A program made the position numbers and the translations under genes. Under the pieces are notes generated by a model. It saw nothing but the letters and a program-made list of their open reading frames with translations. It was not told where the DNA came from and ran no database searches. A DNA stretch of 64,000 nucleotides from Ideonella sp. A 288 (lineage in GTDB: Bacteria; Pseudomonadota; Gammaproteobacteria; Burkholderiales; Burkholderiaceae_C). The stretch spans positions 10,317 through 74,316 of the forward strand of contig NZ_MWLO01000143.1 in assembly GCF_002198735.1 (NCBI RefSeq), in the 5' to 3' direction. Every line of letters begins with the position of its first letter. The first letter of the stretch is position 1. This document shows positions 23,401 through 60,781 of this stretch, one piece after another.

Positions 23401-23443
23401 TGTCCAGCGCCAGACAGATTTGCGGATTCTCCGCTCTTAGCAT
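23401..23443 (+). promoter_or_regulatory. Class-II Crp/Fnr-type promoter of the porin
   Basis: The operator is TGTCCAGCGCCAGACA (23401-23416), flanked by C and G so that CTGTC-N8-GACAG is symmetric. A -10-like TAGCAT lies at 23438-23443, with centres 32 bp apart. That spacing places the operator at about -41.5. The predicted start site is near 23450 and the porin GTG is at 23511. One of six matching operators in the region. Confidence 0.6.
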
Positions 23444-23510
23444 CCGATCGCATCGAGATGGCCGGGCATCGCATCGGCCGCCGTGCACCCATGCAACCCA
23501 GGAGACCACC

Positions 23511-24623
23511 GTGGCCCCGATTCGCACCCCCTTGCTGATTTCATCGCTCGCCCTGACCACCGCAGCCTGGGCGCAGACCTCGACCGTGCAGATCGAAGGC
23601 AACGTCGGGGTCGGCCTGACCTACAAGAACCACCAGACCGGCTCGAGCACGGTGAAGGAAGTCTCGCCCAACCTGCTGGTGGCGTCCTACGTCCGCTTCG
23701 GTGGCTCCGAAGACCTGGGCGGCGGCATGAAAGCCATCTTCCGGCTCGAAAGCAGTCTGAACATGGACACCGGCAACCCGGGCGGCAACGGCGCGGGTGG
23801 CAACAAGTTCTTCAACCGCCAGAGCTGGCTGGGGCTGGACATGGGCAGCGCCGGCACCATCACGCTGGGCCGGCAATTCCATGCCGCCACCGACCGCGCG
23901 ATCCGCACGTTCGACGTCTACAACGTGGGGGGTACCAGCCTGCACAGCACCCCGTTGGCCCTGTTCGGCGTGAACCGCTACGCGGGCAACGACACCCGGG
24001 TCGACAACTCGATCAAGTACCGCTTCGGCAGGCCCGGCGTGATCGACTTCGCCGTCAGCTACGGCTTCGGCGAGGTCGCCGGAAGCAGCAGCCTGGGCCG
24101 CAGCCATTCGGCCGAGGTGTCGCAGACCACTGCCACGTACAGCATCGGCGCGAGTGTCGTCAGCTTCAATGCACCGGCCCTCGTGGCCACTACTGGATTC
24201 ATGCCCAAGCACGACCTGGTGAGCATCGGCGGCAACGTCAAGCTCGGCGATTTCCGCCCCTACGTGGCGTACTACAAGAGCAAGCTCGACTCGACCACCG
24301 CTGGCCGGCTGACCCAGAAGAACGACATCCTCGATCTCGGACTGGCATGGACTGGCTACAGCCAGTTTCAGTTCAAGGGCAACTACATCGACGACAAGGG
24401 CACCAGCTTGAATGGCCTGGCCGGCCGCGACGGGCACAAGAAGACGCTGGTGCTGTCGGTCGAGTATTTCCTGTCGAAGCGCACCGCCCTCAATGCCGCG
24501 ATGTTCAGCAACCGGTTCAGCGACGGCTACAAGCTCGAAGCCACCAACATCGCTGCCTTGTCGCGCGACCCGGCAGCGGCGTCCGTCTCTGGCTGGTCGG
24601 CAGGCATCGTCCACGCCTTCTGA
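23511..24623 (+). CDS. Gram-negative porin (OmpC-like, Burkholderiales type)
   Basis: A 370-residue outer-membrane porin that forms a trimeric 16-stranded channel for small solutes. The signal peptide is about 21 residues, ending A-W-A-Q. The mature protein begins with beta-strand S-T-V-Q-I-E-G-N-V-G-V-G and contains the family motif S-R-F-G/S-x-E-D-L-G-G-G here as R-F-G-G-S-E-D-L-G-G-G. It ends in phenylalanine (H-A-F), the beta-barrel assembly signal. The start is GTG with AGGAG 6 bases upstream; upstream ATGs in frame give no signal peptide. It has its own operator-bearing promoter and is probably the outer-membrane entry route for the sulfate-ester substrates handled downstream. Confidence 0.93.
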   Translation: MAPIRTPLLISSLALTTAAWAQTSTVQIEGNVGVGLTYKNHQTGSSTVKEVSPNLLVASYVRFGGSEDLGGGMKAIFRLESSLNMDTGNPGGNGAGGNKFFNRQSWLGLDMGSAGTITLGRQFHAATDRAIRTFDVYNVGGTSLHSTPLALFGVNRYAGNDTRVDNSIKYRFGRPGVIDFAVSYGFGEVAGSSSLGRSHSAEVSQTTATYSIGASVVSFNAPALVATTGFMPKHDLVSIGGNVKLGDFRPYVAYYKSKLDSTTAGRLTQKNDILDLGLAWTGYSQFQFKGNYIDDKGTSLNGLAGRDGHKKTLVLSVEYFLSKRTALNAAMFSNRFSDGYKLEATNIAALSRDPAAASVSGWSAGIVHAF

Positions 24624-24635
24624 TCGGTCGGACGA

Positions 24636-25379
24636 TCACAACCTGGCACGCTCGGCGAGCTTGCCAGGGTCGGTGATGGTGATGGTGGAGTAGCGCAGTT
24701 CGATCAGTCCATCCTTGCGCAACTGCTGCACCGCGAAGTTGGCGCGCTGGCGGCTCACGCCCAGCCAGTCGCCCAGGTCGCTCTGTGCGATCTTCATCTG
24801 GAGCAGCACGCCTTCGGGGCGCTTGAGCCCGTAGATCACGCTCAAGGTCTGCAGCAGGCGGGCCAGCCGCAACTCCAGCTGCATCGACGGGTCAGAGGCC
24901 AGCCGTTCGTAGAGCATGCGGCTGCGAAACGCCAGCTGCCGCTCGAAGGCGCGGGTCAGCGCCGGGTCCAGCTCCCGCAGCGATCGGATGGTCTCGCCCG
25001 GGATGAGCAGCACGGTGGTGCCTTTCGATCGCGCGCACAGATCGTTCACATGGCCCATGCCGTCCAGCATGCTGATCATGCCTGCCACGTCGCCGGGCTG
25101 CAGAAAACTCACCAGGTGCCGGTGCCCGTCGTGCCGCAGCAGCGAGGCTTCGATCGAGCCCTCGACGATCAGGCACAGCATGTCGAAGGGCGAGCCGCGC
25201 TGCGCCAAGACCTCGCCCTTGCTCAGCGTGCGCCAGCGTCCGGCATCGATCAGCGCTTCCAGCGTGTCCGCGCGGCAGTCGCGAAAACCCAGAGCCTGTC
25301 CCAGCAGGGTGCGGGCGACGGCCCGGCGGGACTCGCTGCCGTGCTTTGTCGGAGTTTTGACAGAACCGGTGGGGGGCAT
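24636..25379 (-). CDS. Crp/Fnr family transcriptional regulator 1
   Basis: A 247-residue regulator with an N-terminal cyclic-nucleotide-binding-like sensor domain (about 30-150) and a C-terminal winged helix (about 165-235). The recognition helix V-S-R-Q-R-A-N-F-A differs from both CRP (S-R-E-T-V-G-R) and FNR. The CRP phosphate-binding stretch G-E-L-x10-R-S-A is replaced by G-M-I-S-M-L-D-G-M-G-H-V-N-D, so cAMP is an unlikely ligand. No FNR-type iron-sulfur cysteine motif is seen. It is about 60 percent identical by eye to the regulator at 31102. A TGTC-N8-GACA operator lies within its first codons and faces the decarboxylase/GMC operon on the other strand, suggesting it activates that operon and represses itself. 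Confidence 0.9.
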   Translation of the reverse strand: MPPTGSVKTPTKHGSESRRAVARTLLGQALGFRDCRADTLEALIDAGRWRTLSKGEVLAQRGSPFDMLCLIVEGSIEASLLRHDGHRHLVSFLQPGDVAGMISMLDGMGHVNDLCARSKGTTVLLIPGETIRSLRELDPALTRAFERQLAFRSRMLYERLASDPSMQLELRLARLLQTLSVIYGLKRPEGVLLQMKIAQSDLGDWLGVSRQRANFAVQQLRKDGLIELRYSTITITDPGKLAERARL

Positions 25380-25389
25380 CTTCTAGGCT
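25347..25389 (+). promoter_or_regulatory. Class-II Crp/Fnr-type promoter of the decarboxylase/GMC1 operon
   Basis: Operator TGTCGGAGTTTTGACA (25347-25362) followed by -10-like TAGGCT (25384-25389), centres 32 bp apart. It drives rightward transcription to the TPP-enzyme gene at 25487. The operator overlaps codons of the divergent regulator gene, whose annotated start is at 25379, so binding could also block that gene. The downstream half TTGACAG is shared with three other copies. Confidence 0.6.
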
Positions 25390-25486
25390 TCGCGCTTCGG
25401 GCCATTTTGAGGCCCGTGCCGGCGTTTGTCGCCCGGGACTCCCCGGGGCCGTGGCACGCGTTGGCGCACCGGAGACACCCCCTGCC

Positions 25487-26017
25487 ATGGACCTCAGCGC
25501 GCATTCCATTTCCGCTTCAGCCGGCATTGCCGCCCTGCGACGCAACCGTGTCGACCATGTGGTCACCGTGCCCGACTGGGTGCAGTTGTCGCTGCATCAG
25601 CGCCTGCAGGACGGTGTCGAAGGCATCCGCCTGATCAACTGTGCCAACGAGAACCAGACCGTCACCGTGGCCGCGGGCCTGACCATCGGCGGCAAACGGC
25701 CGATCCTGATGATGCAGAACCAGGGCCTGTACAACTGCCTGAACACGCTGCGCGCGGTGTGCCTGGACGCGCACATCCCGATGGTCTTCATGGTCGGCCA
25801 GTTCGGCCGCGAGTTCGCCAACCTGGGCCAGCCGGCGACGCAATCGCGGCGAACCATGGTGAGCATCATGGAGCCCTTGCTCAAAGCGATCGCCGTGCCC
25901 TTCCACTGCCTGGACCGGGAAGTCGATCTGCCCCGGATGGACCTGGCCTTCGAACAGGCCGAGGTGCGGCGGACTGCCGTGGTGCTGCTGGTCGGCGCGC
26001 CGATGGCCTGGCAATGA
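25487..26017 (+). CDS. Thiamine-diphosphate decarboxylase, N-terminal (Pyr) subunit, ComD-like
   Basis: A 176-residue protein equal to the pyrimidine-binding domain of ThDP enzymes, of the type encoded as a separate alpha subunit in sulfopyruvate decarboxylase (ComD) and phosphonopyruvate decarboxylase. The catalytic glutamate that activates ThDP is Glu55 in A-N-E-N-Q, followed by the A-A-G-L-x-x-G-G-K-R-P pattern and M-M-Q-N-Q-G-L-Y-N-C-L-N near 74-85. Its stop is within 18 bp of the C-terminal subunit gene. The pair should decarboxylate a 2-oxo acid in the cytosol. No sulfoacetaldehyde acetyltransferase is nearby, so the true substrate may instead be an aromatic or alkyl oxo acid. Confidence 0.85.
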   Translation: MDLSAHSISASAGIAALRRNRVDHVVTVPDWVQLSLHQRLQDGVEGIRLINCANENQTVTVAAGLTIGGKRPILMMQNQGLYNCLNTLRAVCLDAHIPMVFMVGQFGREFANLGQPATQSRRTMVSIMEPLLKAIAVPFHCLDREVDLPRMDLAFEQAEVRRTAVVLLVGAPMAWQ

Positions 26018-26034
26018 CAACAAGGGAGACGACC

Positions 26035-26757
26035 ATGATGAACATCGTGCAGGCCTGCGGGGTGGTGGCGAAGTCGCGCGGCGACGCGATCCTGGTGTCG
26101 ACGATGTTGTCGATGTTCATCTTCGACCGCATCGAGGGGGCCGATGGCAAGGCCCGCAGCGTGCCCTTGCTGGGCGGCAAGGCCGGGCTGGTGCTGGGGC
26201 TGGCGGTGGCCAAGGTGAAGCAGAAGCTGGCCAGCTCCGGGCCAGCGGGCGAAGTGGCCACCACCGGTCGCATCAGCTCCGTGCCCTTGATGGGCGGTGC
26301 CGCCGGACTGGGCCTGGGCCTGGCCCTTGCGCAGCCGCAACGCAGGGTGGTGGTGATGGACGGCGACTCCAGCCTGCTGATGGAACTGGGCGGCCTGGCC
26401 ACCGTGGCGGCGGTGGCGCCCCGGAACCTGCTGCATATGGTGGTGGCCAACGGCACCCAGTTCACCGGCCTGGGCAACCTGAAGATCGTGACCACCGATT
26501 TCCAGTTTGCCAAGGTGGCCCGTGATGCGGGCTATGTGCATGCCGAGCGCATCGCCGATGGCGCGGTGTGGGCCGAGCGCTTCCCGAAACTGCTGGCCAT
26601 GGACGGCCCGGTGTTCGTCGAGTTGATGGTCGAGCCCGTGCCGCAGCAGACCAAGCCTGGCTTCGAGCAGGAGGAAATGCCCGACCGCCAGTTCGACCGC
26701 ATGGGCCAGGAGGCCTTGGCCCTTCAGGCCATGCTGGCTCAGGACATGGCGGGCTGA
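26035..26757 (+). CDS. Thiamine-diphosphate decarboxylase, C-terminal (PP) subunit, ComE-like
   Basis: A 240-residue partner of the preceding subunit carrying the diphosphate- and Mg-binding domain: M-D-G-D-S-S (108-113) and the distal asparagine Asn139 in V-V-A-N-G, the standard G-D-x(n)-N motif. I chose ATG 26035, which has AAGGGAG 6 bases upstream, rather than ATG 26014 that overlaps the previous stop. Unusually, residues 42-60 (V-P-L-L-G-G-K-A-G-L-V-L-G-L-A) are repeated at 82-100 (V-P-L-M-G-G-A-A-G-L-G-L-G-L-A), an internal duplication of about 120 bp. The GMC oxidoreductase starts 2 bp after the stop. Confidence 0.85.
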   Translation: MMNIVQACGVVAKSRGDAILVSTMLSMFIFDRIEGADGKARSVPLLGGKAGLVLGLAVAKVKQKLASSGPAGEVATTGRISSVPLMGGAAGLGLGLALAQPQRRVVVMDGDSSLLMELGGLATVAAVAPRNLLHMVVANGTQFTGLGNLKIVTTDFQFAKVARDAGYVHAERIADGAVWAERFPKLLAMDGPVFVELMVEPVPQQTKPGFEQEEMPDRQFDRMGQEALALQAMLAQDMAG

Positions 26758-26759
26758 GC

Positions 26760-28373
26760 ATGACCGACACCTTCGACCACATCGTCGTCGGCGCCGGCTC
26801 GGCCGGAGCAGCCCTGGCCGCGCGCCTCACCGAAAGCGGGCAGCACACCGTGCTGCTGCTCGAAGCCGGCCCGCCCGACACCAACCTGTGGACGCGCATT
26901 CCGGCCGGTGTGATCCAGGTGCTGCAGCAGGGCAAGGTGACGCGCAGCTTCTTCACCCAGCCCGACCCACAGATGAACGACCGCCGCATCTACTGGCCGC
27001 GCGGCTGGGTGGTGGGCGGATCTTCCACCGTCAACGGCATGATCTGGGTGCATGGCACGCCGCGCGAATACGACCTGTGGGCCCAGGATGGCTGCCCCGG
27101 GTGGGCCCACGCTGACCTGTTGCCCTGGTTCAAGCGCATCGAAGACTACGCGGCCGGCGATGCCGCGCACCGCGGCAAGGGAGGGCCGGTCACCGTGACC
27201 GAGTTCAAGCCCGTGGATGAGCTGCCCGACGCTTTCCTCGACTCGGTGCAGGCCGCGGGCGTGGCGCCCCGCGTGAAGGACTACAACGTGCGCGGCCTCG
27301 GTGGCAGCTACCTGCAGTTCAACACCCGCAATGGCATCCGCTGCAACACGCGCATGGCCTACCTCGATCCGGCCCGCGGGCGCCACAACCTGACGATCAA
27401 GACGGGCGCACTCGTGGGGCGTGTGCTGATCGAGAACCACCGCGCTGTCGGTGTGCGGGCGCATGTCGACGGGCGTGAAGTCGACTTCCGCGCCAAGCGC
27501 GAAGTCATCCTGTGCGGCGGCGCTTTCAACTCACCGCAGTTGCTGGAGCTCTCGGGCATCGGCCGCCGCGCGGTGCTGGCCACCGCCGGCGTTCCACTGC
27601 TGCACGAGCTGCCGATGGTGGGCGAGAACCTGAGCGAGCATGTCTACAGCCCGATGCAATTCCGGGTCAAGCCGGGGGTGAGCTGGAACCGCGATCTTTC
27701 CAGCCCGATCGGCCAGGCCAAACTGGGCCTGCGCTGGCTGCTCAAGCGCGACGGCCCGATGTCCAGTGTGACCATCACGGCGCAGGCCTTCGCGCCCAGC
27801 CGGCCCGAGGGCCAGGACGCCGAGCTGAAGATCCAGATCCAGCAGGTCAGCACACCGGGCAATCGCGGCGCCGGCAAGATCACGCTGGACGATTTCGACG
27901 GCGTGACCATCGCGTCGTTCCAGATCCGTCCCCGCTCTCGCGGCCGCACCCACATCGTCAATGCCAACGCCGCGGCCGACCCGGTGATGGTCTCCAACCA
28001 CTTCACGCACCCCGACGATCTGGAGGCATGCCTGCTGGCATTGAAGATGTCCCGTCGCGTGGCTGGCGCCGGACCGATGGCGCGCCTGATCGACGAAGAG
28101 GTGCGCCCCGGCCCGAAGGCCGCCAGCGACGAGGCATTGGCGGCCTACCTGCGCGCCACGGGCGCCACCGCCTATCACCCGGTGGGCACCTGCCGCATCG
28201 GCACCGATGCGGCGCAGTCGGTGGTCGACCCGCAGCTGCGCGTGCATGGCATCCGCGGTCTGCGGGTGGCCGACGCGTCGGTGATGCCCACCATCGCATC
28301 GACCAACACCAATGCGATCGCCATCGTCATCGGCGAGCGGGCGGCGGACTTCATCCGCCAGGACCCGGCTTGA
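26760..28373 (+). CDS. GMC family FAD-dependent alcohol oxidoreductase 1
   Basis: A 537-residue flavoprotein of the glucose-methanol-choline family, which oxidises alcohols to aldehydes with bound FAD. The dinucleotide motif G-A-G-S-A-G is at residues 11-16, the G-G-S-S-T-V-N-G-M-I-W motif near 87-97, and the second GMC signature G-A-F-N-S-P-Q-L-L-x-L-S-G-I-G near 255-269. The catalytic base is His473 in Y-H-P-V-G-T-C-R, paired with an asparagine near 518. No signal peptide, so cytosolic. It is coupled to the split decarboxylase and resembles choline or polyethylene-glycol dehydrogenases in general, but the substrate is not determined. GMC2 at 37414 is a paralogue. Confidence 0.93.
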   Translation: MTDTFDHIVVGAGSAGAALAARLTESGQHTVLLLEAGPPDTNLWTRIPAGVIQVLQQGKVTRSFFTQPDPQMNDRRIYWPRGWVVGGSSTVNGMIWVHGTPREYDLWAQDGCPGWAHADLLPWFKRIEDYAAGDAAHRGKGGPVTVTEFKPVDELPDAFLDSVQAAGVAPRVKDYNVRGLGGSYLQFNTRNGIRCNTRMAYLDPARGRHNLTIKTGALVGRVLIENHRAVGVRAHVDGREVDFRAKREVILCGGAFNSPQLLELSGIGRRAVLATAGVPLLHELPMVGENLSEHVYSPMQFRVKPGVSWNRDLSSPIGQAKLGLRWLLKRDGPMSSVTITAQAFAPSRPEGQDAELKIQIQQVSTPGNRGAGKITLDDFDGVTIASFQIRPRSRGRTHIVNANAAADPVMVSNHFTHPDDLEACLLALKMSRRVAGAGPMARLIDEEVRPGPKAASDEALAAYLRATGATAYHPVGTCRIGTDAAQSVVDPQLRVHGIRGLRVADASVMPTIASTNTNAIAIVIGERAADFIRQDPA

Positions 28374-31007: not shown

Positions 31008-31050
31008 AGCCTAGCGGGCGCGAGCGTCAGGCTCTGTCAATCCGTTGACA
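31008..31050 (-). promoter_or_regulatory. Class-II Crp/Fnr-type promoter of sulfatase 1
   Basis: Operator TGTCAATCCGTTGACA (31035-31050), the most symmetric copy: CTGTCAA-N4-TTGACAG over 31034-31051. On the minus strand a -10-like TAGGCT runs 31013-31008, centres 32 bp apart, and the sulfatase ATG is at 30934. The same TAGGCT hexamer is used at 25384. Confidence 0.65.
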
Positions 31051-31101: not shown

Positions 31102-31806
31102 TCAGCCTTTGGCCTTGTTGGCCAGACCGGCGGGGTCGACGATGGTGATCGCCGAGTAGCGCAAGCTGATCAGCCCGTCGCGCTCCAGTTGCTGGATCAC
31201 GAAGTTGATTCGCTGCCGGCTCGCGCCCAGCCAGTCGGCCAGGTCGGACTGAGACACCTTCATGTCCAGCAGCACAGTGCCGCCCTCGCTCGGCCGGCCG
31301 TACAGGCCGATCAGCAGGTGCAGCAGGCGGGCCAGGCGGGCGTCCAGTGGCATCGAGGGGTCGGCCGACAGGCGCTCATAAAGCAGGCGGCTGCGAAACA
31401 CCAGTTGCCGCTCGAAAGCCGGGCCCAGCATGGGATCGAGCAGGCGCTGGCGCCGGATGTCGTCGCCGGGCACCAGCAAGACCGTGGTGGAGTGGCGCGC
31501 GCGCAGGTCGTTCACGTGGCCTTGGCCATCGATCAGGCACATCAGGCCGACCAGATCGCCCGGCTGCAGGTAGCTGATCAGGTGGCGGCGGCCATCGTGG
31601 CGCAGCAGGCTCACCTCCAGCGATCCTTCGACCACCAGGCACAGCATGTCGAACGGATCGCCTCGGGTCAGGAACAACTCGTTCTTGCCCAGCGCCCGCG
31701 AGTGGCCGGCGGCGATCAGCGCGTCAAGCGTTTCGGGGCGGCAGTCGCGAAAGCCCAGCGCACGGCCCAGCAACTCGCGCGCCGTTGCCTTGGCGGAAGT
31801 CCCCAT
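31102..31806 (-). CDS. Crp/Fnr family transcriptional regulator 2
   Basis: A 234-residue paralogue of the regulator at 24636, with the same domain order: sensor beta-roll (about 17-137) and winged helix (about 152-222). The recognition helix reads A-S-R-Q-R-I-N-F-V, differing from regulator 1 at few positions, so both could read the same operator. The CRP cAMP motif is again absent (V-G-L-M-C-L-I-D-G-Q-G-H-V-N-D). I chose ATG 31806 because the upstream alternative (31845) would place the TGTC-N8-GACA operator inside the coding region. It is divergent from the TTT-sulfatase operon and likely its activator. Confidence 0.9.
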   Translation of the reverse strand: MGTSAKATARELLGRALGFRDCRPETLDALIAAGHSRALGKNELFLTRGDPFDMLCLVVEGSLEVSLLRHDGRRHLISYLQPGDLVGLMCLIDGQGHVNDLRARHSTTVLLVPGDDIRRQRLLDPMLGPAFERQLVFRSRLLYERLSADPSMPLDARLARLLHLLIGLYGRPSEGGTVLLDMKVSQSDLADWLGASRQRINFVIQQLERDGLISLRYSAITIVDPAGLANKAKG

Positions 31807-31812
31807 GGGGTT

Positions 31813-31855
31813 TGTCCGTGATTTGACAGAACCGGGCCTGCCCATTGCCTACTCT
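31813..31855 (+). promoter_or_regulatory. Class-II Crp/Fnr-type promoter of the TTT1-sulfatase 2 operon
   Basis: Operator TGTCCGTGATTTGACA (31813-31828) with -10-like TACTCT (31850-31855), centres 32 bp apart, upstream of the TTT binding-protein ATG at 31908. The operator is also 7 bp ahead of the preferred start of regulator 2, so binding should repress that gene. The stretch TTTGACAGAACCGG is shared with the promoter at 25347 (there TTTTGACAGAACCGG). Confidence 0.6.
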
Positions 31856-31907: not shown

Positions 31908-32885
31908 ATGAACCCCTGCATTTCGCGCCGCCACCTCATCGGTGGCCTGTTGGCCGCACCCGTGTGGGCGCCAACGGCGTTCGCGCAAGCCAGTTGGCCC
32001 ACCACCACGATCCGCATCGTGGTGCCGTCACCGGCTGGCGGTGGCGTGGACGCGTTCGCGCGGGTGGTGGGCGAACAGTTGGCTGCCGCGCTGAAGGTGA
32101 CGGTCCTCATCGACAACAAGGCCGGCGCCAGCGGGTTGATCGGCACCAAGGCCGCAGCGCAAGCGGCGCCCGACGGCTACACCATCGCCTACATCCATTC
32201 GGGCCTGGTGACCGTGCAGGCCATGAACCCGCGCCTGGACCTGCTGAAGGAACTGCGTCCCGTGGCCAAGCTGTCGTACTCGCCGTTCATGGCCGTGGTC
32301 AACGCCGAGTCCAGGTTCAAGACCATGCAGGACCTGGTGGCCGAGGTGCAGGCCCACCAGGGCAAGCTCACGTTCGGCTCTGGCGGCCCGGGCTCGCCCG
32401 CGCACCTGGCCGTGGAGTACATCGAGGAGAAGCTCGGCAACTTCAAGTGTGTGCACGTGCCGTTCAAGGGGGCAGCCGACTCGGCCAACGCCATCGTCGG
32501 CGGCCAGGTGGACTTCCAGGTCGGCTTGCTGGCCGCTTCGGTTCCGCTGGTGCAGGCAGGCAAGCTGCGCGCCCTGGCCGTGACCAGCCGCAACCGCCTG
32601 CCGCAATGGCCCAACGTGCCGACGATGTCGGAGGCCGGCGTGCCGGGCTTTGTCTTCGAGCCCTGGGGCGGCTTCGCGGTGCCGGCCGGCACCCCCGATG
32701 CGGTGATCGCGCGACTGAACGAGGTGCTGCCGGGCGTGCTGGCCTCGGCGCCGGTGAAAGACATGGTGGCCAAGCAGGGCTCAGTGATCGACTTCGCACC
32801 GCCCGCCGCCTTCGCGGCACAGATCGTGCGCGAGCTGGAAGTCGACAAGTTGGTCGTCAAGCGCCTGGGCATGACGCAACAGTGA
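31908..32885 (+). CDS. Bug/TTT family periplasmic binding protein 1
   Basis: A 325-residue tripartite tricarboxylate transporter (TctC/Bug) binding protein. The Tat-like leader S-R-R-H-L-I-G-G-L-L-A ends at A-F-A-Q (about residue 27). The mature protein starts W-P-T-T-T-I-R-I-V-V-P-S-P-A-G-G-G-V-D, the family signature with the ligand-anchoring loops. Other typical stretches are D-N-K-A-G-A-S-G and P-F-K-G-A-A-D. ATG 31908 with AAGGA upstream was chosen over 31845. No TctA/TctB membrane genes are in the window, so it is an orphan binding protein, as is common in Burkholderiales. It probably captures the sulfated or carboxylated substrate for the operon. Confidence 0.92.
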   Translation: MNPCISRRHLIGGLLAAPVWAPTAFAQASWPTTTIRIVVPSPAGGGVDAFARVVGEQLAAALKVTVLIDNKAGASGLIGTKAAAQAAPDGYTIAYIHSGLVTVQAMNPRLDLLKELRPVAKLSYSPFMAVVNAESRFKTMQDLVAEVQAHQGKLTFGSGGPGSPAHLAVEYIEEKLGNFKCVHVPFKGAADSANAIVGGQVDFQVGLLAASVPLVQAGKLRALAVTSRNRLPQWPNVPTMSEAGVPGFVFEPWGGFAVPAGTPDAVIARLNEVLPGVLASAPVKDMVAKQGSVIDFAPPAAFAAQIVRELEVDKLVVKRLGMTQQ

Positions 32886-32895
32886 GTGCGAAGCC

Positions 32896-35193
32896 ATGAC
32901 CCACTCGCGCAACGGCAATCCGCACGAGGCCTTCCAGGGCCACATCGAACGCCTGATCAAGGATTCCACGCCCTGGTGGCCGCCATCGGCCGCCGAGCGT
33001 GTGCATGGCAAGCCTAATGTGGTGGTGATCTACCTCGACGACCTGGGCTTCTCCGACCTGGGCTGCTACGGCAGCGAGATCGCCACGCCGCACATCGACG
33101 CGCTGGCCGCCGCCGGCCTGCGCTTCATGAACTACACGACGGTGCCCATGTGCTCGCCGGCACGCGCCGCGCTGCTCACCGGCAAGAACCCGCACTCGGT
33201 CGGATGCGGCTGGATCGCCCATGCCAACCCCGGCTACCCCGGCTACAAGAGCGAAATCGCGCGCGACGCGCCCACGCTGGCCGAGATCCTCGGTGACCAG
33301 GGCTACAGCACCATGATGGTGGGCAAGTGGCACAACACCTGGGGCCACCAGGTGCACGAGGCTGGAGATCGCAGCTCGTGGCCGCTGCAACGCGGCTTCC
33401 AGAAGTTCTACGGCTTTCTCGACGCCGAGACAAGTTACTTCCATCCTGAGCGGCTTTACGAGGGCAACAACCCGGTCGAGATCGACGCCTACCCGGCCGA
33501 CCACTTTGCCACCGACGACTGGACCAGCCGTGCCATCCGCTGGATGAAGGAGCACCACGCCAGCGAACCAACGCATCCGTTCTTCATGTACATGGCCTTC
33601 AATGCGCCGCACATGCCGATCCAGTGCAAGCCGGCCGACAGTGCCAAGTACCGCGACCGTTACAACTCAGGCTGGAACGCGTTTCGCCAGGCCCGCTTCG
33701 ATCGCCAGCGCGAGCTGGGCCTGATCGATGATCGCCACCGTCTGGCACCACTGCCGCCGGGCGTGGCGTCCTGGGACCAGCTCTCGGCCGAGAAGCAGGA
33801 GCTGTTCGCACGCTACATGGAGCTGTACGCCGGCCTGGTCGACAACATCGACCAGAACGTCGGCCGCGTCGTCGAGTTCCTGCGCCAATCGGGGCAGTTG
33901 GACAACACCATCCTGGTGATCAGCTCCGATAACGGCGCCAGCGCCGTGGGCGGGCTGGACGGCACGCCCAACTACGTCGACCAGCGCGAAGGCACGCCGG
34001 TGGACAACGCGCGCGCGCTGCAACTGGCGCGCGAAGGCAAGCTGGGCAACGACGAAACCATGGCCGCTTACCCCACGGGGTGGGCGCAGGTGTCGAACGC
34101 ACCGTTCCGCTACTTCAAGCGCACGCCGCTGAATGGCGGCATCCGTGTGCCCTTCGTGCTGCACTGGCCGCAACGCATTGCCGATGGCGGCGCGATCCGC
34201 CGCGAGTGGATCCACGTCACCGACGTCACGCCCACGCTGCTGGACCTGCTGGACATCGCCCACCCCGACGCGGTGAACGGCTTCGACGCGCGCAAGCCCG
34301 ATGGCGTGAGCTTTGCATCGATGCTGACCGACGCGGCCGCACGATCGCAGCGCACGCAGCAGCACTACGAACTGGAGGCCAACCGCGCCCTCATCAACGG
34401 CCGCTGGAAGATCGCCTCGCTGCAGCCGCGCGGCGGCAAGATCGAGACGCTGGACAACTGGATGCTGTTCGACCTGCAGGCCGACCCGTGCGAGACCACC
34501 GACCTGGCCGCGCAGCAGCCCGAGCGCGTGGCCGCGATGGCCCAGCGCTTCGACGACGAGGCCTGGGCCAACGACGTCTATCCGCTGGACAACCGGGCGC
34601 TGGAGCGTGCCGTCACCATCCCGCCCTTCCTGGCCGAGACGGTGAACACACCGCGCACCTTCTTTGCGGGCACGCCGACAGTGGCGCGCACCGTGGTGGG
34701 CCCGCTGCTGGCCGATCGCGACTTCACGATCCGCAGCCACTTCGATTGGCAGCCGGGCCAGCAGGGCGTGATCTTCGCCATCGGCGAAGTGTTTGTCGGC
34801 CTGGTGCTGTACGTGATGGACGATGCCTTGCACTTCATCTACCACCGCTGGATGTCGCCCACCGAGCTGCCGGCGGTGCCGCTGCGGCCCGGCTCGCAGG
34901 AGGTGCTGCTGGACTACCACGCACTCGGCCAGCGCAAGGGGGAAGGGAGGCTGCTCGTCAACGGCGTCGAAGTGGTGCCGATGACGGTGATGTCACCCAC
35001 GGTGATGGGCGTGCACGTCGAGGGCGTCGACGTTGGGCTCGATCGGCGCCAGCGCATTTCGCCGCGCTACGCGGAGCACGGCACCTTCCGGTACGACGGC
35101 GCGATCGACCGCGTGGTCATCACGCCGGGCGCGCAGGCCCCGGGCAGCATCTCGAACATGATCGAGGCGCGGGTGCATCGGCTGCGCGATTGA
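32896..35193 (+). CDS. Large cytosolic type I sulfatase 2
   Basis: A 765-residue paralogue of sulfatase 1. Metal-binding Asp48-Asp49 are in Y-L-D-D-L-G-F-S-D and the formylglycine precursor is Cys86 in C-S-P-A-R-A-A-L-L-T-G. The motifs V-G-K-W-H-N-T-W, H-P-F-F-M-Y-M-A-F-N-A-P-H and S-S-D-N-G-A are intact. The C-terminal 200 residues (from about 565) are the same extra beta-rich domain as in sulfatase 1. No signal peptide. It starts 10 bp after the TTT1 stop, so import and desulfation are encoded together. A different substrate range from sulfatase 1 is likely, given its separate operon with an enolase-superfamily gene and another GMC enzyme. Confidence 0.94.
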   Translation: MTHSRNGNPHEAFQGHIERLIKDSTPWWPPSAAERVHGKPNVVVIYLDDLGFSDLGCYGSEIATPHIDALAAAGLRFMNYTTVPMCSPARAALLTGKNPHSVGCGWIAHANPGYPGYKSEIARDAPTLAEILGDQGYSTMMVGKWHNTWGHQVHEAGDRSSWPLQRGFQKFYGFLDAETSYFHPERLYEGNNPVEIDAYPADHFATDDWTSRAIRWMKEHHASEPTHPFFMYMAFNAPHMPIQCKPADSAKYRDRYNSGWNAFRQARFDRQRELGLIDDRHRLAPLPPGVASWDQLSAEKQELFARYMELYAGLVDNIDQNVGRVVEFLRQSGQLDNTILVISSDNGASAVGGLDGTPNYVDQREGTPVDNARALQLAREGKLGNDETMAAYPTGWAQVSNAPFRYFKRTPLNGGIRVPFVLHWPQRIADGGAIRREWIHVTDVTPTLLDLLDIAHPDAVNGFDARKPDGVSFASMLTDAAARSQRTQQHYELEANRALINGRWKIASLQPRGGKIETLDNWMLFDLQADPCETTDLAAQQPERVAAMAQRFDDEAWANDVYPLDNRALERAVTIPPFLAETVNTPRTFFAGTPTVARTVVGPLLADRDFTIRSHFDWQPGQQGVIFAIGEVFVGLVLYVMDDALHFIYHRWMSPTELPAVPLRPGSQEVLLDYHALGQRKGEGRLLVNGVEVVPMTVMSPTVMGVHVEGVDVGLDRRQRISPRYAEHGTFRYDGAIDRVVITPGAQAPGSISNMIEARVHRLRD

Positions 35194-45445: not shown

Positions 45446-45493
45446 CGTCGTTCTCCTCGTGAGGGTGAGTGAAGCAGCAAGCGTCCGAGGCCG

Positions 45494-47476: not shown

Positions 47477-47532
47477 CTTCGTCTCCTGTGGACGCAGCAA
47501 ACTCCACGCGCGAGCGGCAGGACAGGCGGTGC

Positions 47533-48912: not shown

Positions 48913-49013
48913 GGCCGGGGTCCTGTGGCGGGTTTCCGGGGTGGTTCAGGCCGGACTTGCTGGGTCAAGCAGGCTGAAGCTCATGCGCCGGCTCGATGAC
49001 GGTCGGTCCGGGC

Positions 49014-50654: not shown

Positions 50655-50717
50655 GAGGCAAGTCCTTTCAGTCCAGCGAGGCCGGTCGGCCGATGGGTTC
50701 GTGGTTTGTGCTTGGTG

Positions 50718-52253
50718 CTACTTCGGGTTCAGCAACGTCGCCGCGCCAATGCCAGAACCCTTCTGCCGTGGCGGGTAGTCCTGCAGGCTCTTGCCGAAGC
50801 GCTGCATCTGACCGCCAATCAGCGGCAGCAGGAAGCTCTTCTCCTTCATCCACAGCAAGTGGCCGCCGGTGTTGGGTGTCAGCTCGAAGGGGTCGAGCTT
50901 GATGTTCACCAGCATGCCGCCATCGAGCTTCTCGGCCGCACCCAGCCAGGTGTTCTTGAGCTGGAAGTGCAGCTTCCATTGGTCCACTCGCACCGCGTTG
51001 AATTCGTTCTCGGCATAGAAGAAGAACTCGCGGCGCTTGCTCTTGCCTTTGCCGGTGAGCATGTCGGTCTGGTTGTAGCCGTCGAGGAAGACCTTGTAGT
51101 CGCGCTCGCCGATCTTGGTGCCCTTGAGCAACCGCTCCTTGATGTCGCCGTCGCCCACTGCCGCCATGAGCGTGGGCAGCCAGTCCTCGCTGGCCATGAA
51201 TTCGCTGGTCCATTCGTTGGCGGCGATCCGGCCGGGCCAGCGCACGAGCATCGGTACGCGAAAGCCACCATCCCAAGTGGTGCCCTTCTCGCCGCGGAAC
51301 GAGGGTGTTCCCGCCTCGGGCCAATGCGCCAGGTTCACACCGTTGTCGGAGGTGAACATCACGATGGTGTTCTTGGCCGCGCCCATGTCGTCGAGCTGCT
51401 TGAGCAGTTTGCCGACGATGGCATCCAGGTGCAGCAGGCCGTCGGCATAGCGGCTGTGGCCGCTCTTGCCCATCCACTCGGGGCTGATGTGAATCTGCTG
51501 GTGCATGCGCGTGGGGTTGAACCACAGGAAGAAGGGCTTGCCGGTCTTCTGCGTGCGCTTGAGCCAGTCCTGCGTGACGGCCAGCACCTCGTCGTCAAAG
51601 GTTTCCTGGCGCTTGGCGCCGAGTTGTCCGCGGTCCTCGATGCGCTGCTTGCCCACCGGCCCGAAGCGGGGGTCGGCGGTGGGGTCGTCCTTGTCGGTGG
51701 CCCAGCTGTAGAGCACATTGCGTGGTCGCCCTGGGAAGTTGGCGTTCTTCGGAAACTCGGGTTGCTCGAACTGCTCCATCACGTTCAGGTGATAGAGCAG
51801 GCCGAAGAATTCGTCGAAGCCGTGTACCGTGGGCAGGTGCTCGTTGCGGTCGCCCACATGGCTCTTGCCGAACTGCGCGGTGGCATAGCCGCGGGCCTTG
51901 AGCATCTCGGCCAGCGTCGGGTCCTCGGCCTTCAGGCCCAGTGGCGCGCCGGGCTGGCCCACCGAGGTGAGTCCGGTGCGGATCGGGTACTGGCCGGTGA
52001 TGAAGGCAGCGCGCCCGGCGGTGCAGCTCGGCTGCGCGTAGTAGTCGCTGACGGTGAGGCCCTCGCGCGCCAGGCGGTCGATGTTGGGCGTGTTCACCGC
52101 GCCCAGGCCGCGGTGAATGGCCGAGACGTCGAAGGGCGCGACGTCGTCGGTCATGATCATCACGATGTTGGGTGGCGCGGCGGCGGATTGCGCCCACGCG
52201 CTGAGCGACAGGGCGCAGGCCAGGCCAGCGGCCAGGAATCGAAGCAAGCTCAT
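50718..52253 (-). CDS. Exported type I arylsulfatase 3
   Basis: A 511-residue type I sulfatase with an N-terminal signal peptide (about 21 residues, ending A-W-A-Q). Metal ligands are Asp36-Asp37 in M-T-D-D-V-A-P, and the formylglycine precursor is Cys77 in C-T-A-G-R-A-A-F-I-T-G, the C-x-A-x-R form. The G-K-S-H-V-G-D and S-D-N-G-V-N motifs are intact. It differs from sulfatases 1 and 2 in being exported and shorter, without the C-terminal domain. It is the second gene of the operon headed by unknown protein A, so it probably desulfates compounds in the periplasm. Confidence 0.94.
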   Translation of the reverse strand: MSLLRFLAAGLACALSLSAWAQSAAAPPNIVMIMTDDVAPFDVSAIHRGLGAVNTPNIDRLAREGLTVSDYYAQPSCTAGRAAFITGQYPIRTGLTSVGQPGAPLGLKAEDPTLAEMLKARGYATAQFGKSHVGDRNEHLPTVHGFDEFFGLLYHLNVMEQFEQPEFPKNANFPGRPRNVLYSWATDKDDPTADPRFGPVGKQRIEDRGQLGAKRQETFDDEVLAVTQDWLKRTQKTGKPFFLWFNPTRMHQQIHISPEWMGKSGHSRYADGLLHLDAIVGKLLKQLDDMGAAKNTIVMFTSDNGVNLAHWPEAGTPSFRGEKGTTWDGGFRVPMLVRWPGRIAANEWTSEFMASEDWLPTLMAAVGDGDIKERLLKGTKIGERDYKVFLDGYNQTDMLTGKGKSKRREFFFYAENEFNAVRVDQWKLHFQLKNTWLGAAEKLDGGMLVNIKLDPFELTPNTGGHLLWMKEKSFLLPLIGGQMQRFGKSLQDYPPRQKGSGIGAATLLNPK

Positions 52254-52292
52254 CGGGGTCTCCAGAGGGTTTTGTCAGCCCGTTCAGCGCGG

Positions 52293-53957
52293 TCAGTGCT
52301 TGAGCATGGCGCTGAGCTTCGAGGTGTCCACCGGGCAGCCCAGGGATTCGAAGCGCGCCTTCTCGCGCAGGTTGATCACTTGCGGCAGGTACTCGCCCAT
52401 GGCCTGCTGTTCACCGTTCAGCGACTTCACGTCGAACCAGCTGTGCTTGAACGCGGGGTTCACCAAGGTGTGGCGGTTGATGACGACGCCGAAGTCGGCC
52501 GAGCCGCCGGGGATGCCGTCGCCGTTGCCGTACTCGATCCATTCGACACCGCACTTGGCGTTGGCGTTGGCCGGGCGGTCGCTGGCGCGCGAGACCACCA
52601 CGCTGAAGTAGCCGCGCGCGTCGACCACCGGGTGCACGTTCTCGTCGTGCACGCAATCCACTGTGTTGCCGATGGGCGGCGCCGTGGAGGTGCACAGCGA
52701 CCAGTAGCGCATGTCGGCCTGATGGTCCATCGGCTCGGCCGTGCCGTCGAAGGTGCGCGGTGTGCTGGGCAGCTTGCCATGCACCACGTAGACCTTGCCG
52801 TAGGCCTGGCTCAGGTAGGTGAAGCCGTAGCGCGTGACCGGGTTGCTCCAGAAGCCGCCCTTCTCCACGGCCAGGCCGTCGCTGGGCAGTGCGGGGAAGA
52901 AGGTGCTCAGCATCAGGTGTTCGCGGTTGTAGAACTTGACCATCGGCGCCACATCGAAGTTGGTGGCCGGTGTGCGGTCGCCCGGCCGCCACGGCAGGCT
53001 GTTCAGCGCCAGCCACAGCTTGGGCGAGACGGTGATCGGCGACTGCTTGCCGCGCTTGTGTGGCACGTCGGTCGCGGCGCAGGTGTCTTGCTCGCTCAGC
53101 ACCTTGCCATCGGCCTGGTGCAATGCGGCCTTCGGCAAACCCACGCCGCCGGTCCAGTCGAGGCCGCGGTCGGGGATGTAGTTGCGCATGTGCATGCCCG
53201 TGGGCACGCCCGGCTCGCTGAGTGTGTAGACCGTGTTCTTGGGCCGCGCGGCCTGGTCGGCCGGCGGTGCGCCGTTGACGATGGTCAGCGTGTAGCGCCG
53301 CGGCTGCGCGTCGCGGCGCTCGCCAGGGCGGAAAGGATTGGCCGCGCCGGCATCTGGCTCGATCTCGCTGTCGTACAGGCCATCGCGCGGCACGCCATCG
53401 ACCGAGTAGGTGACGAAGCTCCAGTGGCGGATGTGCGGAAACTCGCCCTGCAGCACGATCTTGCCGCCAGCCGGGATGCTGAACCAGGCGGTGGAGAAGG
53501 TGTTGCCGATGTCGGGGATCTGGTTCTCGATGCCGTAGTCGTCCGGATCGGTGGTGTAGTAGCCGCTGCGCAGGCGGGGGCCCGGCCAGAAGCAGGTCTT
53601 GATGGCCACCGCCTTGTGCACGTTGTCCTTCCGTGCAATGTCGGTGACGCGCTCTGGCGGCATGGGCGTGAGCAGGTTGCCGGTGCCCTGGCTGCCCACC
53701 ACGTGGCCGTCGGCGCGCGGCACCGGGCCGCCGCGCGGGGTTTGCGGCAGCGAGCGGGCGCGTGGGTCGTCGTCGATGTTGGCGCCGGACGCGGCGTTGG
53801 CTGCCGGCTCGGGCGCAGACCAGGTGTAGGGGCCGCCGGTGGGGCGACCGGCGCCGCCATCGTCCTTGGCCAAGCCTCTCATCCAGACCATCACGATGAT
53901 GACCAGCAGGGCGATCGCACCGACGACTCGCAGCAGCCAGCGCAGCAGGGTTCTCAT
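52293..53957 (-). CDS. Unknown exported protein A, paralogue of protein B
   Basis: A 554-residue protein I do not recognise. Residues 7-26 form a membrane helix or signal anchor, followed by a low-complexity region to about 100 and a large beta-rich domain. It is a paralogue of the protein at 57756: T-F-S-T-A-W-F-S-I-P-A-G-G-K-I matches T-I-Y-W-G-A-K-F-T-I-P-D-G-A-K, M-R-Y-W-S-L-C matches M-R-Y-W-S-I-C, and both end with a cysteine-bearing C-terminus. It has paired cysteines that could form periplasmic disulfides. It is the first gene of the alkylsulfatase operon, with the promoter at 54029-54071. A periplasmic enzyme or binding role for sulfated substrates is possible; no function is assigned. 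Confidence 0.75.
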   Translation of the reverse strand: MRTLLRWLLRVVGAIALLVIIVMVWMRGLAKDDGGAGRPTGGPYTWSAPEPAANAASGANIDDDPRARSLPQTPRGGPVPRADGHVVGSQGTGNLLTPMPPERVTDIARKDNVHKAVAIKTCFWPGPRLRSGYYTTDPDDYGIENQIPDIGNTFSTAWFSIPAGGKIVLQGEFPHIRHWSFVTYSVDGVPRDGLYDSEIEPDAGAANPFRPGERRDAQPRRYTLTIVNGAPPADQAARPKNTVYTLSEPGVPTGMHMRNYIPDRGLDWTGGVGLPKAALHQADGKVLSEQDTCAATDVPHKRGKQSPITVSPKLWLALNSLPWRPGDRTPATNFDVAPMVKFYNREHLMLSTFFPALPSDGLAVEKGGFWSNPVTRYGFTYLSQAYGKVYVVHGKLPSTPRTFDGTAEPMDHQADMRYWSLCTSTAPPIGNTVDCVHDENVHPVVDARGYFSVVVSRASDRPANANAKCGVEWIEYGNGDGIPGGSADFGVVINRHTLVNPAFKHSWFDVKSLNGEQQAMGEYLPQVINLREKARFESLGCPVDTSKLSAMLKH

Positions 53958-54028: not shown

Positions 54029-54071
54029 AGCGTACGGCGTGGCCGTTCGGTGCACTGTCAAGGGATCGACA
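54029..54071 (-). promoter_or_regulatory. Class-II Crp/Fnr-type promoter of the protein A-alkylsulfatase operon
   Basis: Operator TGTCAAGGGATCGACA (54056-54071). Leftward, the minus-strand hexamer TACGCT covers 54034-54029 with its centre 32 bp from the operator centre, as in the other copies. Rightward, TAGGAT lies at 54096-54101 toward the octahaem gene, but its spacing is 35 bp and does not fit the class-II geometry. The site is in the divergent promoter of both genes. Confidence 0.6.
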
Positions 54072-57755: not shown

Positions 57756-59240
57756 CTACTTCGCCTTGGCTGCGGCCTGCTGCGCGGCGTCCATCTCTTC
57801 GGTGTCTTTGGCGATCTGCGCCACAACGCCGGGTGAACGGCAGTTGAACGAAGACTCAAAGTTGGAGGTGGTCAAGTAGACACTGGTCGGCAGATAGGGG
57901 CCCATGACCGCTTTCTCGTCACCGGGCTTTTGAACTTCACGCGTGGTTTGCTTGAAGTTGGGATTGACCAGCATGTTGCGGATCATCGTGTTGCCCTGAT
58001 CGGGGTCATACATGCCGTCGCCATCGTCGGGCATGGGCAGCCAGTTGATGCCGCACTCAGGGTAGGCCGTGCGTGGGCGATCCGCCGCTTTGCTGAAGGC
58101 GATCACATAGTTGCGGTCCTTGTCGATGACCACTTCCTCGTCGTTCAGGCACTTGATGACCATGGTGTTGGCCGCACCCTTTTGCGAGCAGATGGACCAG
58201 TAGCGCATGTCAGCGTTCTTGACATCCATGATCTTCTCGCCATTCATGGTCTTGGGGGTGATGGGCAACTTGCCTCGGATCACGAACACCGGGCCGAACT
58301 TGCGGTTGTAGAAAGTGCGGATGTAGGTGTTGTCGGTGGTGGGGTAGAAGCCCTCGCTCTTGCGGCTGTAGTCGCCGGTCGGAATGCCCGTGAAGATGCT
58401 TTCGAACTGCTTGCGGTCAAACTGGGCGTACCAGGTGGCCGGGCGCGTCGCCGGGTGCGTGTCTGGCTTGCCTGGGGTGGTCAGCAACTCGCGGTAGCGC
58501 CATGCCGGCATGCCAAAGGCGTCAGGCGCCACGGCCAGGCGCTGGGTGGTGTTGAGGGCCTGACAGGCCGCCATGCCGCGCAAAACCTTGCCATCGGCCA
58601 GCGTCAAGACGGGGGAAGGCAGTGGCACGCCACCGGTGATGCCCGTGCCCTTGTCCGGCGTGTAGATGCGCAGAATGACGACCTGCTGCTTGCCCTCGCC
58701 GTTTTGTGGCGCGTTGATGAGCTTGACGGTCCGGCCATCCTCCAGATAGATGCCTTCCGGACGGCTGGTGTCGCGAACATTGCCGGTCTTGATCTCGATC
58801 TGGTAGGAGCGCTTCGAGGTGGTCCGGTCTGCGCCGTGGCGGGTGGTGTTGGTGTGCCCTGGCAGGGGCTCGATCAGATAGTCGGCCACGGTTTCCACCG
58901 GCTGGCCGCGTTCGTCATAGCTCACATACGACGTATAGCGCGAACGGGGGAACTGACCTTCCATGACCAACTTGGCGCCGTCCGGAATGGTGAACTTCGC
59001 ACCCCAATAGATGGTGTTGGTGTCAGGCCAAGCGGTGTTGTAGTAGGGGTCTCCGCTGTAAGGCCCTGTCTCCCAGAAGCAGGTCCGCACACCGGGAATG
59101 CCCGGTTTGGTGGTGTCATTCAGATTCTTGGGGCCGGACATCGGCACGGGGTCGGCGGCCACCGCCAGTTGGCTGGTCACCAGGGCGGCCACGGCAGCGC
59201 CCAGGGCGGCGAATCGAAGGATGTGGAATCGGTGGTTCAC
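57756..59240 (-). CDS. Unknown exported protein B, paralogue of protein A
   Basis: A 494-residue protein of unknown function with a signal peptide of about 27 residues (ending V-A-A-D after A-V-A-A-L-V-T-S-Q-L). The mature domain is beta-rich and parallels protein A: cysteine-containing C-F-W-E-T-G-P near 54, a G-Q-F-P-R-S-R-Y-T-S-Y-V-S-Y stretch near 97-110, and M-R-Y-W-S-I-C near 346. It is 10 bp downstream of the aldehyde dehydrogenase gene, so they are cotranscribed. Recurrence of this family beside sulfatase/dehydrogenase genes suggests a periplasmic step in the same pathways. No motif reveals a reaction. Confidence 0.75.
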   Translation of the reverse strand: MNHRFHILRFAALGAAVAALVTSQLAVAADPVPMSGPKNLNDTTKPGIPGVRTCFWETGPYSGDPYYNTAWPDTNTIYWGAKFTIPDGAKLVMEGQFPRSRYTSYVSYDERGQPVETVADYLIEPLPGHTNTTRHGADRTTSKRSYQIEIKTGNVRDTSRPEGIYLEDGRTVKLINAPQNGEGKQQVVILRIYTPDKGTGITGGVPLPSPVLTLADGKVLRGMAACQALNTTQRLAVAPDAFGMPAWRYRELLTTPGKPDTHPATRPATWYAQFDRKQFESIFTGIPTGDYSRKSEGFYPTTDNTYIRTFYNRKFGPVFVIRGKLPITPKTMNGEKIMDVKNADMRYWSICSQKGAANTMVIKCLNDEEVVIDKDRNYVIAFSKAADRPRTAYPECGINWLPMPDDGDGMYDPDQGNTMIRNMLVNPNFKQTTREVQKPGDEKAVMGPYLPTSVYLTTSNFESSFNCRSPGVVAQIAKDTEEMDAAQQAAAKAK

Positions 59241-59250
59241 GCAGGTCTCC

Positions 59251-60672
59251 TCACTTGGTCAGAAAGGCCAGCACCCGATCGGCAAACTTGCCGTAGGGCG
59301 GCCACAGGAACTTCAGCGAGCTGAAGCGCGCCTGGTAGAACACCGGGCGCAGTTTCGAAAACGTCTCAAAGCCTTCATGGCCGTGGTAATGGCCCATGCC
59401 GGAGTCTCCGACGCCCCCGAACGGCAGGTCGTGCTGGCCGACGTGGAAGAGGGCGTCGTTGACCGACACACCGCCCGACATCACGCGGTCCAGCAGCATC
59501 TGCACTTTTGCGCGGTCGTGGCTGAAGGGGTAGATGGCCAGCGGCCGCGGGCCGGCGTTGATGCTTTGGATCACCGTGCCCAGGTCGGTGTAGCCACGCA
59601 GCGGCAGGATGGGGCCGAAGATCTCGCGCTGCATCAGCACGCAGTCGTCGGGCGCGTTGAGCACGATGTGCGGGGCGATCTTGCGCGTGGCGCGGTCGAA
59701 GGCCGGGCCGGGGATCAGCGGCACCAGCCGGGCGCCGCGCTCGCGGGCGTCGTCCAGCGCCTGCAGCAAGCGATCAAAGGACCGCTGGTCGATGATCGAG
59801 GTGTAGTCCGGCGAGGCCAGGCTGGGGTAGCGCTGCGGCACGATGGTGAGCGCCAGCGCCACGAAATCATCGATGCATGACAGCGGCAGCCAGGCATGGT
59901 CCACCGTGGTGCAGATCTGGCCGGCGTTGAGGTACTTGACGAACAGGATGCGCTCGGCCGCCACCTTCAGCGGAAAGTCGTCGCAGACGATGGCCGGCGC
60001 CTTGCCGCCCAGTTCGAGTGTCACTGGACAGAGGTTTTGCGCCGCTGCGGCCATCACCGCGCGTCCGGTGGTGCCCGAGCCGGTGAACAGCAGGTGGTCG
60101 AACGGCAGCTTGGAGAACTCGATGCCCACGCCGCCGGTCTCGTCGAAGAACTGCAGCTTCTCGGGCGGAAAGTAGGCCGGCATCCGCTCGATCAGCACCT
60201 TGGCCAGGTGGCGCGAGTTCTCGCTCATCTTCACCATCGCGCGATTGCCGGCGGCGAAGATGTAGGACAGCGGCACGAGGCTCAGGTTGACCGGGAAGTT
60301 CCACGGCACGATCACGCCCACCACGCCCAGTGGCTGCGGGATCACGCGATTGCGTGCGCCGAAGAAATTGCGCAGGTCCACGGCGCGGCGCTGCGGTTTC
60401 ATCCAGCCGCGCAGGTGCTTGACGACATGGTCGATGCCGTCGGTGGCCGGAAAGATCTCGGCCAGCAGCGTTTCGTGGCGCGAGCGGTTGCCGTAGTCGG
60501 CGCTGATGGCGTCGCACAGCACGGCCTTGTTCTCACGGATGAAGCGTTGCAGCGTGCGCAGGTCGGCCTTGCGTTCGGCCAGGCTGGGCACCGGGTTGGC
60601 GACGTAGGCCTGGCGCTGCAGGTGCAGAACGGCTTGCAAGTGAGCGGTGAGTGCTTTGGAGGTCATGTCCAT
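59251..60672 (-). CDS. Aldehyde dehydrogenase 2, coniferyl-aldehyde-dehydrogenase-like
   Basis: A 473-residue aldehyde dehydrogenase resembling the coniferyl aldehyde dehydrogenase (CalB-like) branch of class 3 ALDHs. The cofactor segment is V-P-W-N-F-P near 122-127, the catalytic glutamate Glu220 is in L-E-L-G-G-K, and the catalytic cysteine is Cys254 in G-Q-I-C. The C-terminus ends in a hydrophobic tail (V-L-A-F-L-T-K), which occurs in membrane-associated members. ATG 60672 is chosen over a longer frame to 60771 that would cover the operator. It is upstream of protein B and may oxidise aromatic or aliphatic aldehydes released by the GMC enzymes. Confidence 0.92.
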   Translation of the reverse strand: MDMTSKALTAHLQAVLHLQRQAYVANPVPSLAERKADLRTLQRFIRENKAVLCDAISADYGNRSRHETLLAEIFPATDGIDHVVKHLRGWMKPQRRAVDLRNFFGARNRVIPQPLGVVGVIVPWNFPVNLSLVPLSYIFAAGNRAMVKMSENSRHLAKVLIERMPAYFPPEKLQFFDETGGVGIEFSKLPFDHLLFTGSGTTGRAVMAAAAQNLCPVTLELGGKAPAIVCDDFPLKVAAERILFVKYLNAGQICTTVDHAWLPLSCIDDFVALALTIVPQRYPSLASPDYTSIIDQRSFDRLLQALDDARERGARLVPLIPGPAFDRATRKIAPHIVLNAPDDCVLMQREIFGPILPLRGYTDLGTVIQSINAGPRPLAIYPFSHDRAKVQMLLDRVMSGGVSVNDALFHVGQHDLPFGGVGDSGMGHYHGHEGFETFSKLRPVFYQARFSSLKFLWPPYGKFADRVLAFLTK

Positions 60673-60763
60673 GCTCGGGCTCCGTGAGGGTCGACCGGGG
60701 CTCAGGCCCGTTTGGCGTGCGGCAAGCGCCGGCTCGCATGGTGGCGACTTGGGCACGGCCTTT

Positions 60764-60781
60764 CTGTCCACGAATGGACAG
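60764..60781. promoter_or_regulatory. TGTC-N8-GACA operator between ALDH2 and the ThDP enzyme
   Basis: CTGTCCACGAATGGACAG spans 60764-60781, a perfect 7-bp inverted repeat around a 4-base centre and the sixth copy in the region. It lies 92 bp before the ALDH2 start and about 170 bp before the gene at 60954. At the 32-bp class-II position neither strand shows a TA-N3-T hexamer (CACCAT leftward, CACAGT rightward), so the controlled direction is unclear. The 281-bp gap holds no other obvious feature besides AAGGAG before 60954. Confidence 0.55.

Follow-up and report, generated by a model that had tools for sequence, protein, structure and literature searches.

Six exact copies of the word TGTC-N8-GACA were identified on a 64-kb stretch of the genome of Ideonella sp. 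A 288 (C50:10317-74316, here termed the window), and these probably serve as operators in a regulon that is specific to one gene cluster and governed by two Crp/Fnr-type regulators, R1 and R2, encoded in the same stretch. The sites lie at 23401-23416, 25347-25362, 31035-31050, 31813-31828, 54056-54071 and 60765-60780 (operators 1 to 6), where an initial annotation of this DNA had placed them, and are the sole exact matches in the window. That annotation had described the operators as identical and symmetric, which was found to hold for the half-sites, the inner eight bases being different. It had also expected about one occurrence per window by chance and had proposed a count over the window and genome. 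Shuffling of the window gave a mean of 0.77 matches and a maximum of three, with none of 100 shuffles reaching six. Across the 6.98-Mb genome, 32 exact matches were found versus 18 for a control pattern read backwards, and six of the 32 fall within the 0.9% of the genome covered by the window (binomial P ~4e-7), a density far above chance. About five of the window sites can be regarded as independent, as operators 2 and 4 belong to the promoters of paralogous regulators.

Outside the window, 26 further exact sites were found. A crude split of these into intergenic and coding (13/13) was not used; both of the outside sites that carry the full promoter composite described below fell under coding. 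A perfect palindrome, TGTCTTCTATAAGACA, recurs at two loci of the genome (L005 and L059), in opposite orientations and without a -10 element at the spacing described below; it is probably part of a repeat.

A -10-like hexamer, TANNNT, was found exactly 21 bp after GACA at five of the six window sites, with the centres of operator and hexamer 32 bp apart, just as had been annotated. These hexamers are TAGCAT for operator 1 (23438-23443, + strand), TAGGCT for operators 2 (+) and 3 (-), TACTCT for operator 4 (+) and TACGCT for operator 5 (-), while operator 6 has CANNNT at the same gap on both strands (CACCAT on -, CACAGT on +). Of the TANNNT hexamers found when all 12 strand-sides were examined over gaps of 0-60, five stood at gap 21 and one at another gap (P ~2.5e-10 after 61 gaps, with strand-sides taken as independent and the background drawn from neighbouring gaps). 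This fixed spacing is that of class-II CRP/FNR promoters, and the predicted class-II reading, with the operator near -41.5, is well supported by it. Visual inspection of the six promoters showed no -35-like TTGACA at the usual gap of 17 bp. Where TTGACA is present it lies within the operator at gap 21; it was considered as a -35 box and rejected owing to this 21-bp distance from the -10. Genome-wide, the exact composite of operator and TANNNT at gap 21 gave seven matches, namely the five in the window and one each at C28:16234 and C43:76615, both adjoining another Crp/Fnr gene. These two are the only sites with gap 21 among the 26 outside the window, other gaps there being 22 (L012 and L054), 17 (also L054) and 26 (L006).

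R1 (24636-25379) and R2 (31102-31845), both on the - strand and 64% identical, scored above the Pfam cut-offs for cNMP_binding (PF00027) and HTH_Crp_2 (PF13545), as members of the Crp/Fnr superfamily do. The fold of a predicted model of R1 (mean predicted local distance difference test, pLDDT, 77.5) matched CRP-family chains; the Foldseek ranks, with low template modelling (TM) scores of ~0.5, were taken as support for the family and no more. The recognition helix reads SRQRANF in R1 and SRQRINF in R2. The Crp helix-turn-helix (HTH) was matched 34 times in the genome, and among the 30 loci whose DNA was read, an SRQRxN helix was found at five (R1, R2 and paralogs on C28, C43 and C18). Within ~1.5 kb to either side of the HTH, the operator word was present at four of these five loci and was not seen at any of the remaining 25 (Fisher P 1.8e-4, or 3.3e-4 when four loci, L101-L104, that are not clear Crp proteins are left out). 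R1 and R2, which had been put forward as candidate binders, are therefore likely to be the readers of the six sites and the best candidates for binding them: the helix tracks the operator among the paralogs, and the loci of R1 homologues hold the operator.

The best PDB sequence match of R1 was Clr (7pza, E 1.3e-15), with GlxR ranking first by fold (Foldseek). In cAMP-type regulators, cyclic AMP (cAMP) is held by Glu and Arg-Ser residues in the phosphate-binding cassette. The stretch GEMALLDGQPRSAD of Clr aligns with GMISMLDGMGHVND of R1, in which the Glu and the Arg-Ser are replaced. R1 also has three cysteines (35, 69, 115), one fewer than the four of the 4Fe-4S type of FNR. As the residues for cAMP are missing and only three cysteines are present, neither cAMP nor an FNR-type cluster is a likely sensor in R1, and its effector may instead be a ligand from the pathway. 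The window half-sites also differ from TGTGA, the half-site of Clr, CRP and GlxR.

Homologues of R1 were found to be rare, occurring in seven of 399 family genomes (E 1e-40) and three of 399 order genomes (E 1e-35), with the source genome counted in both, and in one metagenome bin. No relative of R1 was matched in a plasmid collection. At nine of the ten homologue loci outside this genome (10-20 kb read for each) an exact TGTC-N8-GACA site was present, as it was at all eight of the first-scanned loci (seven of them 3.7 kb long), where the genome rate would predict ~0.1 site per 20 kb. The pairing of regulator and operator thus recurs in other genera. Genes for a split thiamine diphosphate (ThDP) enzyme and a GMC oxidoreductase, which stand behind operator 2 in the window, are kept at five of the ten loci (L030, L062, L067, L068 and L073). 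The operator before the ThDP gene in these five is exact in three and has one mismatch in two, with YANNNT at gap 21 in all five. At L063 and L072, the site is flanked by a full-length ThDP gene and TctC, with no TANNNT at gap 21. L062 brings together in a single cluster WS/DGAT, P4, aldehyde dehydrogenase, sulfatase, regulator, split ThDP and GMC genes, whose counterparts lie behind separate operators in the window.

The operator was also found to cover the start region of the regulator gene in all six divergent pairs of regulator and target, as defined by predicted start codons. Counted from the upstream ATG, it spans nt 18-33 of the R1, R2 (frame from 31845) and L030 reading frames; in L062, L068 and L073 it contains an in-frame ATG of the regulator. 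R2 has an alternative start past the operator, at 31806. L067 differs in that regulator and ThDP genes are on one strand. This placement, which the initial annotation had not mentioned, would predict autorepression of R1 and R2. In the proposed mechanism, a dimer of R1 or R2 would read the TGTC and GACA half-sites through its S-R-Q-R-x-N recognition helix, with a DNA specificity like that of CooA, and when bound to its ligand would activate sigma-70 promoters from about -41.5 (class II). The porin, the TctC-type uptake protein, sulfatases, GMC enzyme, aldehyde dehydrogenases and ThDP enzymes would thereby be co-induced, while at the R1 and R2 genes a single bound dimer would switch on the divergent operon and at the same time keep expression of the regulator low.

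The operator had been annotated as defining a local regulon; the word itself is not local. The consensus for the operator of CooA, a carbon monoxide (CO)-sensing Crp/Fnr activator, is TGTC-N8-GACA in one report (PMC7306483) and is given as TGTCGGCnnGCCGACA in another (PMC545781); the window operators correspond to TGTC-N8-GACA. The exact composite occurs in all 21 genomes of the genus (65 matches versus two for the backwards control). At the family level it was found in 329 of 399 genomes (125 of 141 genera), with control columns that are mostly zero and were not summed. An SRQRxN protein was encoded within ~1.5 kb at 21 of 28 genus loci, some of which are the two strands of one site. Among 30 family loci that were read, an SRQRxN protein was nearby at eight; twelve had a protein matching a regulator profile that itself includes the C28 and C43 proteins (one of the twelve weakly), and 18 had none within reach. 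At sites without the -10 at gap 21, SRQRxN was found at none of 23 loci read.

What is local is a GACAG subtype of this word. In an alignment of 12 promoters (the six of the window and six from relatives, with one mismatch in the operators of L073 and L068), G follows GACA in 12/12, and the hexamer has A at -11 and T at -7 in 12/12 and T first in 9/12. The resulting refined composite, TGTC-N8-GACAG-N20-YANNNT, has seven exact placements on the genome, all of them at the six window sites (operator 6 on both strands), and the subtype is thus confined to the window. Most of the family sites listed read GACAA instead of the GACAG of the window.

Several observations weigh against a regulon of this kind. 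With up to one mismatch allowed, the window holds 19 matches to the operator word (13 added) versus 21.4 expected, and the excess is confined to perfect sites. The composite with one mismatch was found 14 times genome-wide versus 11 in the control, which is not above chance, and weight was therefore placed on exact matches only; weak copies, tried as added members of the regulon, were rejected on these same window and genome-wide counts. The refined composite with one mismatch occurred 29 times versus 15 in its control, and having been learned from the very sites it describes, its fit to them is not news, while its absence elsewhere is. Among regulators, the SRQRxN paralog on C18 has no operator word nearby, nor in 6.9 kb, and three other SRQRxN regulators of the genome could bind the same word. 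At the homologue loci, TANNNT at gap 21 was absent from seven of ten exact sites (including those of L063, L072 and L064-L066) and present at three. The R1 relatives of L064-L066 stand beside a PEP-CTERM-type gene (one match being below cut-off) and no gene of this pathway.

The sites may be genuine Crp/Fnr operators whose main binder is another SRQRxN regulator (the paralog on C28, C43 or C18) or more than one of these acting together, so that they form part of a wider, overlapping network in place of a private regulon. The composite promoter does occur at the genes of the C28 and C43 paralogs themselves, which have the same helix, and the frequency of related composites in the family fits such a network. 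However, the C28 and C43 sites continue as GACAA, the GACAG composite does not occur elsewhere on this genome, and R1 homologues elsewhere adjoin GACAG operators, and we regard this explanation as unlikely. Somewhat less likely still is that R1 and R2 are mainly repressors, with the 32-bp spacing reflecting a blocked -35 region and ligand derepressing the regulon. The operator does cover the -35 region and, at R1 and R2, lies within the start region of the regulator, but none of the six promoters offers a -35-like TTGACA at the 17-bp gap, and a strictly fixed spacing is expected of Crp/Fnr proteins for activation and is not needed for repression. Chance or shared ancestry, by which palindromes were carried along with duplicated promoters and base composition, is very improbable, as although the R1 and R2 promoters are paralogous with TTTGACAGAACCGG in common and sulfatases 1 and 2 are 55% identical, the remaining promoters have unrelated flanks, six sites were reached in none of the shuffles, and the composite with gap 19 was found in 0/21 genus genomes (three in its backwards control) against the 65 matches at gap 21.

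The regulon proposed for R1 and R2 resembles known systems in part. CooA structures have S/T-R-Q at the same place of the recognition helix as R1 and R2. The relation to R1 is nonetheless distant (PDB phmmer E ~3e-4 and 7e-4; Foldseek rank 50, 19% identity), and the window cluster has no link to CO genes. The C28- and C43-type regulators share helix, word and 21-bp gap with R1 and R2 and differ from them in the base after GACA, in the inner bases and in their neighbouring genes, and they are widespread where R1 is rare. The mechanism itself is of a known kind. Three points are new: in a catabolic cluster, CooA-type operators are paired with two regulators that are neither CooA nor of the cAMP type; the operator sits where the regulator gene starts; and the same promoter grammar is widely used across the family. 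No paper on the recognition helix, peg-type clusters or a TGTCGTC site was found in literature searches, and none of the titles listed for laureth sulfate/alkylsulfatase and for Crp/sulfate-ester regulators was fitting.

Operator 1 is followed by a porin gene (Porin_4, 23511-24623, +). Operator 2 faces, on the + strand, the divergent operon of the split ThDP enzyme and GMC oxidoreductase (25487-28373; N part 25487-26017, C part 26035-26757, GMC 26760-28373). Operator 3 points on the - strand towards sulfatase 1 (PF00884, 28622-30934, -), and operator 4 on the + strand towards a unit (31908-35193, +) of a TctC-type binding protein (31908-32885) and sulfatase 2 (32896-35193). Behind operator 5 lies a predicted unit (44966-53957, -) encoding P3 (52293-53957), sulfatase 3, an AMP-ligase, WS/DGAT, an SdsA-like alkylsulfatase and a DUF2505 protein. 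Operator 6 fronts an aldehyde dehydrogenase (59251-60672) with P4 (57756-59240), together at 57756-60672 on the - strand, and a divergent ThDP enzyme (60954-62612, +). The porin, split ThDP/GMC, sulfatase and alkylsulfatase/WS-DGAT units had been named as the genes controlled; the last of these lies behind 54056, not 60765. In the overall reading of the initial annotation, the density, the spacing, the class-II arrangement and R1/R2 as best candidate binders were supported, with the locality of the word and the genes behind 60765 requiring revision.

P3 and P4, each in an operator-led unit, are paralogous (31.6% identity over 437 aa). No Pfam or NCBIfam family matched either protein significantly, and the P4 of L062 has 70% identity to that of the window. 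The split ThDP enzyme resembles sulfopyruvate/phosphonopyruvate decarboxylases, below their cut-offs. Use of sulfate esters is a fair inference for the function of the cluster, and an alkyl-ether sulfate would presumably fit its GMC, aldehyde dehydrogenase, TonB receptor and AMP ligase, by comparison with polyethylene-glycol clusters. The region looks acquired and accessory, since the N part of the split ThDP enzyme was found in only one of the 21 genus genomes, that of the source, and the cluster lies downstream of a tRNA-Phe gene (20174-20249) and an integrase remnant at 20719. The stretch 20174-21291, in which the tRNA is followed by a protein with the central domain only of a phage integrase (PF22022), is like the edge of an integrated element, and a RES-domain protein (21794-22462), of a toxin-antitoxin type family, adjoins the remnant. 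No att repeat of the tRNA-Phe end was found along C50:10317-103908 (no shared word >=15).

Two further promoters were observed among the family sites. The promoter at C43:76615 (genome G000) and its family counterparts are strongly conserved as TGTCGTC..AACGACA...GCGTCAAA...CTANNAT, with look-alikes in very many genera; in this genome the promoter lies between an SRQRxN regulator and an AMP-binding gene of acyl-CoA synthetase type. Counterparts of C28:16234 (e.g. L107, L113, L116 and L125) show one operator, beside an SRQRxN regulator, that is followed on each strand by TANNNT at gap 21, and a site of this type is possibly a two-way class-II promoter.

We tentatively suggest, at somewhat less than even confidence, that the SRQRxN regulators of the family may make up a large branch of Crp/Fnr activators that has yet to be described, with one promoter grammar (TGTC-N8-GACA, 21 bp, TANNNT) and no CooA or cAMP sensor. 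Its members would be distinguished by the base that follows GACA together with the eight inner bases of the operator. R1 and R2 would then be a portable switch travelling with a sulfate-ester pathway, with an operator in the start codon region through which the pathway would be induced and the regulator silenced. For the catabolic cluster of this organism, which otherwise had no assignment, the findings provide a complete and testable local regulon of regulators, operator, promoters and target units, in which operons lying apart would be tied into one pathway. For the family, they indicate a widespread group of Crp/Fnr activators in which the CooA word would serve a purpose unrelated to CO, and the fixed pairing of helix and word may be usable for regulon prediction in hundreds of related genomes.

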